In this document: piece by piece, positions 9,403 to 39,248 of the stretch
Layout of the letters: each line of letters opens with the position of its first letter
How positions within the stretch are numbered: the stretch's first letter is position 1
Assembly: GCA_023954475.1 (NCBI GenBank)
Contig: JAMLHW010000002.1
Location: 310,001-374,000 of the forward strand
Length of the DNA: 64,000 nucleotides
Source of the DNA: Anaerolineae bacterium
Lineage (GTDB): Bacteria > Chloroflexota > Anaerolineae > Promineifilales > Promineifilaceae
Reading direction: 5' to 3'
Made by a program: the position numbers and the translations under genes
Notes under the pieces: model-generated
The model's input: only the letters and a program-made list of their open reading frames with translations
What the model was told of the DNA's origin: nothing
Database searches by the model: none

Positions 9403-9470
9403 GTTGTTGGTTGGATAGTTTGCAGGTACGCCTGTGACTATCCAACCAGACAACTTCCCAGCTACTCAGC
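9401..9470 (+). repeat. Octamer-periodic hairpin directly before the ABC-F start codon
   Basis: AAGTTGT plus TGGTTGGATAGT (9401-9419) pairs with ACTATCCAACCA plus ACAACTT (9437-9456). This gives a 19-bp stem with one bulged G and a small inner CAGG/CCTG stem. From 9403 the sequence reads in 8-base steps: GTTGTTGG, TTGGATAG, TTTGCAGG on the left and CAACCAGA, CAACTTCC, CAGCTACT on the right. There is no U-tract, and no Shine-Dalgarno before the ATG at 9471. It could end the exporter transcript or control ABC-F translation. Confidence 0.6.
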
Positions 9471-30396: not shown

Positions 30397-30472
30397 TAGT
30401 TGGATAGTTGGGTAGTTGGACAGTTGGGTCGTTGGGTTACCATCCAATCACCAGCCCATCAAACCAGCCAAC
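30397..30472 (-). repeat. Octamer tandem array (inverted halves) directly before the RfbH start codon
   Basis: On the plus strand five units run without a break: TAGTTGGA, TAGTTGGG, TAGTTGGA, CAGTTGGG, TCGTTGGG (30397-30436). Then come complementary-looking units built on CCATCCAA, CCATCAAA and CCAGCCAA (to 30472). Read on the minus strand the array ends four bases before the ATG and can fold into an imperfect hairpin. No Shine-Dalgarno is present. Confidence 0.8.
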
Positions 30473-30869
30473 ATTTGCTGGTAAAAATCGACTGGGAATT
30501 ATAGCACACGGACTACAGCCAAGGCATAGTCGTGCAGGACGCGCGTAGGGGGTTCTTGCCCTACGGCTCATCAACGTTGAACGGCCGCTAAACCGGTAAC
30601 TTCAAACACAGTCGAGACTACTTACAGACTGACAGATCTGATTTCGGCCGATTCCCGTTGTCAAGATCAGTTCGTACAATGCGTGCAAGTTGCTCAAATA
30701 CGCGACTTCGGCCCAATCAATCCGTTTGCTTAAAGTCAGAACTGTGCGATCATAAACAGTACGATGTTTTGTAACGCTTCAGCAAATCGGTGTGCGTTAT
30801 CATGGTCAAAGCCGTCTTTCACCTCGCAACAGAAAAGCCAGGTTAACGCAGCACCACAGAGGAGACCTC
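30473..30869. other. Intergenic region with rfbH -10 and upstream region of the next gene
   Basis: A perfect TATAAT on the minus strand (30498-30503) could drive rfbH across the octamer array. One TCGGCCGA copy is at 30644. A CCTACG-rich stretch near 30545-30570 (GTAGGG/CCCTAC) can form a small hairpin. I see no gene here; the open frame ahead of the ATG at 30870 is rejected because GAGGAG sits just before that ATG. Confidence 0.45.
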
Positions 30870-32165: not shown

Positions 32166-32169
32166 GGAC

Positions 32170-32204
32170 TGATAGCTGATAGCTGCCAGCTAATAGCTGT
32201 TAGC
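32170..32204 (-). repeat. Five tandem heptamers directly before the rfbC start codon
   Basis: Plus-strand units with exact 7-base spacing: TGATAGC, TGATAGC, TGCCAGC, TAATAGC, TGTTAGC. Only four bases separate the array from the rfbC start codon. The units contain AGCT-type self-complementary cores (GCTAA/TTAGC), so the transcript can form small hairpins. The array fills most of the 43-base gap to proline dehydrogenase. Confidence 0.85.
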
Positions 32205-32208
32205 TTCT

Positions 32209-36997: not shown

Positions 36998-38545
36998 TTA
37001 AGATTCGGCCGAAATTTGTGGGCTGCGCCGTGCAATATGCCATAGATCGACGAGTTCACGTCCGCCCAACAGAAAATTGATGCCGAAATAGGTGATGACA
37101 CTTGCGCCACCAGCGACGACGAGGAATGGCACAGTTGACAATCCTATGCGGCTTATCATCTGAATCACGATTGCCATCCCTGCTGCAGCAACTGCATTGC
37201 GGCCGAATGCCAGCGCCAGCGTGCGCCCGCCAAGCGGCCCGGCATACCAACGATTGAGGATCAACAGCGCAACCGCCAACAGTGTAAATGCCACCGTACT
37301 CGCTAACGCCAGACCGCCTACACCCAACTGCCCAAATAACTGATAGCTCAACCACGCATTGACGACAAACCAGCCGAGGTAAGCACACATCGGAATCCAG
37401 GTATTGTGCTGCGCGTAAAACATGCGCGCCAACACTTCGATGCTCGCTTCGCTGACCACCCGCACACTGAAAAAAACAAGGATAGCAGCCACTGCCGCTG
37501 TCGAAGCCGCGTCAAACGCACCGCGCTGCAGCACAAATTCCACCGCAGGACCGCCCAGCAGCACGAGAGCGACAGCCGACGGAATCGTCAGCAGCCATAT
37601 GATGCGCAACGAACGCATCGACAAACGCTTCATACCTGCCCGATCACTGGCGTTAAACAATTCCGACATGGTGGGAAAGACGACGATGGCCACGGCAGTG
37701 CCAAACAGCGTTTCCGGGAGTTGCATCAACGTATAGGCATAAAAATAGCCGGACACAGCGCCCCCCGGCTCTTGCGACGCCAACCGGATGATGATCAGGT
37801 CAGCAGCCTGAATTGCACCGAGCATCACAATGCGCGGCAGCATCAGCCAGATGATTTCGCGTACGCCGACCAGTTGCATCGCCAACGCCGGTCGCAGCTT
37901 AATGCGATACCTGATCAACCCGGGAACCTGAATACCGATGTGAAACAACGCGCCGATCACCGTACCCCATGCCAGTCCATAGACGCCAATGATGGGCACG
38001 AGCAAGAAGAAACCGATGAAGTACCCGATGTCGAGAGCAATCGGTGCCAAAGCCGGTAAGGCAAAGTGCTGGTGCGAATTGAGAATGCTGCTGATGACGC
38101 CGCTGATACCGAAGAGCATCGTGTTGAGCAAAATGATGCGCATCAGATTGGCGGTGAGGGTTTGCTGTTCGGCCGAAAACCGCGGAACGAGAAGTTGGCT
38201 GACAATCAACGGCGCAAACAAGGCGGCCAGCAAACTGATGCCACCTAAAACGAGGAAAACCAGTGTGAGAATTGTATTGGCTAACCGCGCGGCATCTTTG
38301 GCCTTTTCCTGATCCTTGAGATACGCCGTGTATACCGGGATGAACGCCGCCGCCAATGCGCCGCCGGCCACCAGAACAAAAAAGAGTTCCGGCAACTGGT
38401 TGGCTGCCGCGAACGCATCTGCTTCGGCTCCTGTGCCAAAGGCGTTGCCGACGAGTAGCAGACGCACAAAGCCGGTGACTTTGTTCAGGCCAAACAGGAA
38501 AACGACGAGGATTGTCGATTGCAGCAGGTGACGCGTGCGGTTCAT
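36998..38545 (-). CDS. murJ: Lipid II flippase MurJ
   Basis: This 515-residue MOP-superfamily membrane protein has about 14 helices and moves lipid II across the cytoplasmic membrane for peptidoglycan synthesis. N-terminal features are typical: a first helix with FLFGLNKVTGFVRLLLVG, then FFVLVAGGALAAAFIPVYT. Its presence implies a peptidoglycan wall. The ATG touches a heptamer array with no Shine-Dalgarno. It is the gene between the F420-type reductase and recA on the same strand. Confidence 0.95.
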   Translation of the reverse strand: MNRTRHLLQSTILVVFLFGLNKVTGFVRLLLVGNAFGTGAEADAFAAANQLPELFFVLVAGGALAAAFIPVYTAYLKDQEKAKDAARLANTILTLVFLVLGGISLLAALFAPLIVSQLLVPRFSAEQQTLTANLMRIILLNTMLFGISGVISSILNSHQHFALPALAPIALDIGYFIGFFLLVPIIGVYGLAWGTVIGALFHIGIQVPGLIRYRIKLRPALAMQLVGVREIIWLMLPRIVMLGAIQAADLIIIRLASQEPGGAVSGYFYAYTLMQLPETLFGTAVAIVVFPTMSELFNASDRAGMKRLSMRSLRIIWLLTIPSAVALVLLGGPAVEFVLQRGAFDAASTAAVAAILVFFSVRVVSEASIEVLARMFYAQHNTWIPMCAYLGWFVVNAWLSYQLFGQLGVGGLALASTVAFTLLAVALLILNRWYAGPLGGRTLALAFGRNAVAAAGMAIVIQMISRIGLSTVPFLVVAGGASVITYFGINFLLGGRELVDLWHIARRSPQISAES

Positions 38546-38615
38546 GAAGATTGCGGATTTTTGATTTCAGATTTCGGATCGGAGATGTCAGTCCGAAATC
38601 CGAAATCCCACATCC
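38546..38615 (-). repeat. Ten-heptamer inverted array filling the murJ 5' region
   Basis: Starting on the base next to the murJ start codon, the plus strand reads in exact 7-base steps: GAAGATT, GCGGATT, TTTGATT, TCAGATT, TCGGATC, GGAGATG, TCAGTCC, GAAATCC, GAAATCC, CACATCC. The first half is built on GATT, the second on its complement AATCC. The array therefore folds back as a hairpin. Together with six more bases it makes up the whole gap to the upstream gene. Confidence 0.85.
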
Positions 38616-38621
38616 GAAATG

Positions 38622-39248
38622 TCATCTGCGGAGCAGCTTGAACGCGATTTCCGGGCCGTTGTGCATGGTAAAGGCGAGTTGCATCCAGAGAACGGCCAGC
38701 GGTTCGAGATACCGGGCGTGTTTGATTGGGCCGCAGTCGACGGGATTAAAGCCAATTTCGGCCGAAAGCTGCGCCGCCACCGCCTTGGCCTGATCATCAT
38801 TGCTGCAATAATATGCATCAGCTTGCACACCGTCGAATTCCGGCTGTTCCAGCAGTTGCCAATAAATGTGATTGAATACTTTGACCACTTTGGCGCGATG
38901 CCAGGTGCGCGCGATTTCTTCACCAGCCGACCATTTGTGGCCCAGCGCCAGGCTGCCGGATGATTTGAGCGGATTGATACAATCAAAAACGATCTTGCCG
39001 TCGACCGCGTTACCGACGGCACGTTCGACGTCGGTGAAGGCGTACCAGGGGAAGGAAAGCAGGAGTACCTCGCCAAACTCGGCCGAATCCTTCAAACTGC
39101 CGCCCTGCGTACCTTCACCAATGTCAGCAGCCAACGCCTGTGCGCGCACTGCCTCACGGCTGCCAAACATGATCTCGTGCCCATTCTGTGCCCACAATTT
39201 GCCCAGCGTGGTTCCCATTCTTCCCGTTCCCAATACTCCAATGCGCAT
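38622..39248 (-). CDS. NADPH-dependent F420 reductase-like oxidoreductase
   Basis: This 208-residue Rossmann-fold protein has the dinucleotide-binding GTGRMGTTLG at residues 7-16, followed by GSREA, which favours NADP. The overall pattern (KVVKVFNHIYW, CSNDDQAKAV, DCGPIKHARYLEPLAVLWMQLA) matches the F420H2:NADP oxidoreductase / NPDR-like family. Many bacterial members do not use F420, so the cofactor is uncertain. GGGGGT lies about eight bases before the start. Confidence 0.82.
   Translation of the reverse strand: MRIGVLGTGRMGTTLGKLWAQNGHEIMFGSREAVRAQALAADIGEGTQGGSLKDSAEFGEVLLLSFPWYAFTDVERAVGNAVDGKIVFDCINPLKSSGSLALGHKWSAGEEIARTWHRAKVVKVFNHIYWQLLEQPEFDGVQADAYYCSNDDQAKAVAAQLSAEIGFNPVDCGPIKHARYLEPLAVLWMQLAFTMHNGPEIAFKLLRR

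Follow-up and report, generated by a model that had tools for sequence, protein, structure and literature searches.

Degenerate-heptamer hairpins in gene spacers and protein linkers of an Anaerolineae genome: the murJ spacer element as a probable tolerated copy of a dispersed class

Over-representation of heptamers in bacterial genomes has been noted for years, and to our knowledge its origin and spread are unexplained. Several described systems come close to the element studied here, a hairpin upstream of murJ in the genome of an Anaerolineae bacterium. In Geobacter metallireducens, 49 copies of four GGACCGG units lie within and between genes, and class 3 hairpins are built of five MTYCTGA units (PMC2700814). 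Like the arrays described below, these have 7-bp units, opposite-strand hairpin pairs and many copies in and between genes, but they use other words, belong to one genome and were interpreted as regulator binding sites, with no cross-phylum class or word replacement described. TAACTGA direct repeats occur in Beggiatoaceae, Cyanobacteria and Bacteroidetes, and control of translation has been proposed for them in Beggiatoaceae (PMC4679880). They are likewise heptamer arrays that abut start codons, mostly without a Shine-Dalgarno sequence, with a patchy phylogeny, some copies in genes and an unexplained spread; however, they are direct and rarely inverted, are limited to a single word, and lie strongly upstream of starts in one orientation. 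The GGGAATC arrays of Xanthomonas and Nostoc (PMC4692102) resemble ours in lying near ORF ends, in including some inverted pairs and in occupying the same ORF pairs in two species with unit variation, whereas their word forms G-quadruplexes and they are generally not hairpin-based. As a type, STRR, TAACTGA and GGGAATC arrays share with ours tandem 7-bp units that are dispersed and mostly intergenic, but they are direct, one-orientation repeats upstream of starts, whereas the arms found here are paired and inverted in one constant order, with no preference for spacers that hold a start.

Three further systems are similar in other respects. The arms of the P6b stem in the Nostoc trnL(UAA) group I intron are built of heptamers of the classes TDNGATT and NNTGAGT (PMC4476775); TDNGATT resembles GATTTNN, units are gained and lost, and one word class is replaced by another with the structure kept, yet this is a single, non-dispersed RNA locus whose structural role is known. 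Rickettsia palindromic elements, of several families, are palindromic repeats that have entered housekeeping genes in frame (PMC10969869), as have some of our arrays, but they are ~100-150 bp long, with a conserved encoded peptide and no 7-bp periodicity, whereas GATTTCG elements are 28-82 bp long and periodic, and many other words exist. REP/REPIN sequences with their RAYT are, like ours, palindromes dispersed in intergenic DNA; here, in contrast, the RAYT (Y1_Tnp) genes are not flanked by a repeat of their own and no conserved unit is copied whole. The literature searched, mostly outside subscription journals, yielded no description of GATTTCG hairpins, of a many-word, many-phylum class or of in-place word replacement, and searching by literal sequence returned human primer papers only. 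Heptamer arrays as such are already known.

The window (the whole 64,000-nucleotide stretch that was analysed) comes from a 5.12-Mb genome in 26 contigs. The + strand of its murJ spacer (38546-38621) reads GAAGATTGCGGATTTTTGATTTCAGATTTCGGATCGGAGATGTCAGTCCGAAATCCGAAATCCCACATCCGAAATG and consists of 29-nt inverted repeats, 83% complementary and 13 nt apart, with four GATNNNN units on the left, four reverse-complement units on the right and a loop between them (Table 1). The transcript of the spacer is predicted to fold at -32.9 kcal/mol (z = -4.65; none of 200 shuffles as good). An earlier note, made from the sequence alone, had described ten heptamers arranged as an inverted repeat whose transcript folds back. 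The arms and the fold bear out the inverted repeat, and eight of the heptamers, four a side, belong to one family, whereas units 5-7 (TCGGATC GGAGATG TCAGTCC) are loop and edges. The extent of 70 bases given there, ending six short of the upstream stop, was a choice of register, and the element in fact runs on to the stop codon. The sequence agrees with the same note that no Shine-Dalgarno-like string precedes the murJ ATG, though only about half of the genes of this genome have one. Among the Rfam 15 covariance models, the best match to the hairpin scores 20.8 bits against a cut-off of 50, and an intrinsic terminator scan for a G+C-rich stem followed by a T run found two terminator-like sites, neither in the murJ element.

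Table 1. Features of the murJ spacer and other periodic arrays (positions in the window)
Feature	Position	Strand	Remark
Whole hairpin element	38546..38621	.	Fills the spacer between the F420-oxidoreductase ORF and murJ
Left arm, four heptamers GATTGCG GATTTTT GATTTCA GATTTCG	38549..38576	+	
Central loop, non-heptameric	38579..38591	.	13 nt between the arms
Right arm, four reverse-complement heptamers	38594..38621	-	+ strand CGAAATC CGAAATC CCACATC CGAAATG
murJ (lipid II flippase), downstream gene	36998..38545	-	ATG directly abuts the element; Pfam MurJ E=1.4e-83
F420-dependent NADP oxidoreductase-like ORF (F420_oxidored domain), upstream gene	38622..39248	-	Stop codon directly abuts the element
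Period-7 array, other word (GCTGATA / TATCAGC type)	32166..32208	.	Fills another spacer
Period-8 hairpin, TAGTTGGA arm then ATCCAAT...CCAACA arm	30397..30474	.	
Period-8 type hairpin, GTTGGTTGGATAGTTT ... ACTATCCAACCAGACAAC	9403..9470	.	Fills a codirectional spacer

The murJ element has many counterparts in the same genome. With at most 3 mismatches, ATTTCGGATTTCGGATTT has 102 matches against 1 for a reversed control, so that the pattern is far above chance; the matches form 39 clusters, of which ~35 are real elements. A position weight matrix trained on the copies yields GATTTCG, in which GAT hardly varies and the other four positions are loose. Nineteen copies lie in codirectional spacers, often spanning the gap from stop to start edge to edge as at murJ, 2 in divergent spacers, 12 inside genes and 3 in convergent spacers, two of these three in multi-kilobase gaps where gene calling failed. 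Self-match segments in 1.24 Mb number 19 at lag 7 and 8 at lag 8, against 0-3 at lags 4, 5, 10, 11 and 13, while counts at multiples of 3 are raised because of coding repeats. Other array words of this genome are GCTGATA, CACTGAC, GAATAGT, GAAGGAT, GCAAGGG and the 8-bp AGTTGGAT (window 30397-30437) and CCAATCTC, and many of these non-GATTTCG arrays have an inverted second arm. The three further arrays of Table 1, which start at 32166, 30397 and 9403, each lie within or near a gene spacer. Codirectional spacers of the window's genome, G000, also repeatedly contain another palindrome, GAAACCGGGTTTTT...AAAAACCCGGTTTC (C12:7257-7322, C12:151712-151820 (L228) and C12:511620-511670).

The position of the arrays relative to genes bears directly on murJ. 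The earlier note had taken the array either as a control of murJ translation or as a selfish sequence that the site tolerates, and had proposed comparing arrays with start codons. Under cis control, the array would stand in for the ribosome binding site, with initiation gated by the hairpin itself or by a protein; this suits an element that abuts the ATG, shows no Shine-Dalgarno sequence and folds strongly, in a genome where no more than 8 nt separate 19 of the 24 intergenic copies from a gene edge. Convergent spacers, however, hold no start codon, and with genes called by a simple codon-usage caller they are occupied as often as the others, both in the same-family genome G012 (codirectional 35/215, 16%; convergent 7/36, 19%; divergent 5/33, 15%) and in the window's genome (17/671, 2.5%; 2/129, 1.6%; 4/131, 3.1%). 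There is thus no preference for start-bearing spacers. Arrays also occur inside genes (13/75 in G012, 7/30 in the window's genome), and since ~85% of the DNA is coding, these small numbers indicate that arrays avoid coding DNA. Array edges adjoin stop codons as much as starts, and a Shine-Dalgarno string is as common next to arrays as elsewhere (6/16 against 413/917; 11/22 against 133/282). In the relatives' loci, the pair of F420-oxidoreductase and murJ genes was not found and murJ stands without a GATTTCG hairpin; the pair of an EPSP-synthase-family gene and rsgA was not found in those loci either.

Short distances to gene edges arise mainly because the gaps are short. Targeted insertion at edges was considered and set aside: GATTTCG copies of the window's genome clearly lie close to edges even in spacers of 315-880 bp, the same test in the long spacers of G012 is weak (combined p = 0.02), and most edge-hugging is occupation of short gaps. 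Taken together, the positions and the Shine-Dalgarno counts fit removal of harmful insertions and not a rule of translational control. Spacer occupancy, in-gene copies and Shine-Dalgarno counts therefore speak for the tolerated-repeat half of the earlier note and against control as a general rule or as the reason for the array, and we regard cis control of murJ as improbable. Judged from sequence, the murJ element is probably a tolerated spreading repeat and no murJ control switch, although the array may have an incidental effect on murJ expression. Heptamer-hairpin spacers should not be taken as gene-specific regulators.

Copies inside proteins follow the same words. The GATTTCG array is stop-free in all six frames, with ISDFGFR or SEIRNPK as the repeated peptide; in-frame inserts are present in a RecD-like helicase, an adenine deaminase, a P-type ATPase, a molybdopterin oxidoreductase and, twice, in PurL. 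The PurL of the window's genome carries three arrays, two of GATTTCG and one of another word, and the PurL proteins of seven relatives (55-65% identical) align around the same three linkers, where they have short linkers or arrays of other 7-bp words. The linker words read SALRTPHS and VNRQSPIVNRQSS in G001, SVSSEQYSV in G012, FTIHHSPF and VSSEQ in G013, and VAEWRSGEVAERRSG in G007. Five period-7 arrays, differing in word, lie in frame in the purL gene of G012 (L396:11368-13210). Periodic peptides such as SEIRNPKSEI and VSSEQYSV in proteins of metagenome-derived genomes are DNA-level repeats and call for caution.

Arrays of this kind extend well beyond the window's genome, most of the genomes compared being metagenome assemblies. 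G012 is far denser in them, with 75 in 387 kb. An exact search of public genomes for the two arms together, GATTTCGGATTTCGGA-N(0-30)-CCGAAATC, gives at least 116 matches, and among the matches listed these hairpins are found in at least 10 phyla, with Bacteroidota, Methylomirabilota, KSB1, Chloroflexi, Latescibacterota, Acidobacteria, Nitrospirae, Planctomycetes, Omnitrophica, Verrucomicrobia and Proteobacteria as hosts. In the 842 kb around public GATTTCG sites, other words account for 118 segments at lag 7, compared with 6-13 at control lags; because these loci were picked for GATTTCG, the counts show co-occurrence of words and not overall frequency. Among 58 long non-GATTTCG hairpins, the arms have period 7 in 24 and period 8 in 5, and any other period in 0-2. 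AATGAAC/AATGAGC arrays of 177-197 bp (25-28 units) in G012 (L397:295-491, L402:1-177 and L386:16931-17123) are far above the typical length, which suggests local expansion. Two different words at one place, hairpin-like or as neighbouring arrays, are seen at L183:5326-5395 and L052:2985-3066.

Comparison between species reveals different words in the same gap. The paaA-paaB spacer (PaaA 71-78% identical) holds a GATTTCG hairpin in the window's genome, an AGCACTC array in G005, an AAAACGC hairpin in G012, a TAATTGG hairpin in G004 and mixed words in G017, and measures just 14-38 bp in G002, G008 and G013. The livJ-livG spacer holds GATTTCG in the window's genome, GGACGGA in G007, TCAGTTT in G012 and GATTAGC in G017. 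Among public genomes similar enough to be aligned as DNA, a hairpin is kept at one site in the Algoriphagus pair L105/L132 (flanks 73% identical), units are rearranged at one site in L115/L122 (flanks 90% identical), and two Nitrospirae contigs (L150/L157; 81% over the region) carry at the same spot a GATTTCG hairpin and an unrelated GGAGT/ACTCC hairpin, respectively. L161 has a 110-bp 8-mer hairpin that L155 lacks at the same site (flanks 96 and 83%). Arrays are thus present or absent, or changed in word, between species whose flanks are 81-96% identical. Unit number also differs between orthologous copies (L130/L171, L114/L184), and the loops of such copies diverge faster than the arms. Presence/absence and word-exchange pairs, re-used junctions and in-frame copies make it testable what copies a 7-bp word to new places, and why the number is 7.

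The hairpin inherited at one site in L105/L132 and the junctions re-used with new words raise the question of function, as a hairpin could be useful there. The REP sequence between malE and malF of E. coli is a precedent for a hairpin that serves as mRNA stabiliser or processing site. A useful operon hairpin of this sort, needed at certain junctions and rebuilt from the current word of the lineage, would suit the re-occupation of the same junctions and the L150/L157 pair, where the word is swapped and the hairpin kept, much as words are replaced with the structure kept in Nostoc P6b (PMC4476775). Convergent and divergent spacers are nevertheless equally occupied, arrays with one arm are roughly as numerous as those with two (57+51 = 108 against 128), copies lie in frame in PurL linkers and several relatives have a short hairpin-free spacer at the same junction, and we consider this explanation unlikely.

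The reading we favour, and think probable, is that the murJ spacer is one copy of a dispersed class of short hairpins with degenerate tandem-heptamer arms (GATTTCG / CGAAATC), tolerated where it stands and spread by insertion or overwriting. Copies are spread genome-wide, in any gene orientation, and lie in frame in linkers of essential genes. We infer from these patterns that an insertion or overwriting process would place period-7 hairpins in constraint-free DNA and that selection would purge gene-breaking arrays; the survivors would be arrays fitted exactly into short spacers and protein linkers, with unit number and word turning over by slippage and by hairpin-assisted copying between arms or arrays. 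At murJ, any transcript crossing the gap is predicted to carry a stable hairpin, which may incidentally modulate murJ translation or the stability of the mRNA. More doubtful is a wider proposal, that a single undescribed DNA process in many phyla writes period-7 (or 8) hairpins into every unconstrained gap, with lineage-specific words and fixed polarity, overwriting older words. If true, spacers and protein linkers would be shaped by a self-propagating sequence, or a scar of DNA repair, that belongs to a new class.

Several features of the arrays bear on how they might move. GATTTCG invariably forms the left arm and CGAAATC the right one (128:0), and the polarity of other words is kept 39:7. 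Loops are not shared among GATTTCG copies and arm lengths vary. Flank matches of at least 4 bases occur at 12 of 125 elements against ~7.6 expected by re-pairing flanks, so target-site duplication shows no clear excess. The lack of standout duplications and the unshared loops are unlike ordinary transposition, although privacy of loops is weak evidence because loops diverge fast between orthologues. Movement in trans by a REP-associated tyrosine (Y1) transposase, in the manner of a MITE or REPIN, would agree with dispersed palindromes, with the fixed arm order and with the presence of Y1_Tnp (RAYT) genes in the window's genome and most relatives. Three of the four Y1_Tnp loci (L071-L073), however, have no array in their ~1.5-kb flanks and the fourth (L074) has one, within a neighbouring gene; together with private loops, duplications in no clear excess and dozens of unrelated words, this makes such movement unlikely, the transposase being widespread but not linked to arrays. 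The one array near a Y1_Tnp locus of the window's genome lies in frame in a restriction/methylase-like gene (L053:492-3578), just upstream of the RAYT-like gene (L074:1225-1821).

Alternatively, broken DNA ends might be extended with a repeat word and then joined, so that the word runs inwards on both strands and the loop is the join. Fixed word polarity, private loops without a clear excess of duplications, half-arrays with a few mixed-word neighbours, and gap-filling edges would all follow, but such polarity is trivial for any copied element too. Ku is absent from all 36 genomes searched and RVT_1 reverse transcriptase from the array-bearing G000 and G017, which supports neither as an array-making enzyme, and we know of no polymerase that would write many words; we hold end extension to be very unlikely. 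None of the candidates examined (Y1 transposase, RVT_1 and Ku) could be identified as a mobilising enzyme. Simple slippage of heptamers during replication, which a polymerase footprint of ~7 bp would favour (an idea of Mrazek 2007, as cited in PMC4692102), agrees with the differences in unit number at L130/L171 and L114/L184. It does not account for a second, inverted arm, for words shared by dozens of sites or for the rise of new sites, and as the whole explanation it is extremely unlikely; slippage is insufficient alone and may add length variation to the insertion or overwriting that we favour. A compositional rule by which the left arm is always C-poor proved a tendency only (81 G and 42 C in 39 distinct non-GATTTCG words, with AACAATC as an exception), and in-register complementarity between arms (51 better, 14 worse) was set aside as biased by the selection of hairpins.

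A separate repeat was met in the same DNA. The decamer palindrome TTCGGCCGAA occurs 41 times in the 64-kb window (from 6124 to 62271, for example at 38757-38766) against 0.08 expected, and 822 times in 1.24 Mb of the window's genome, 683 of these inside called genes; the 387 kb of the same-family G012 and the 842 kb of public loci contain one copy each. HIP1 is a highly iterated palindrome of cyanobacteria, and TTCGGCCGAA looks like a comparable, lineage-specific one.
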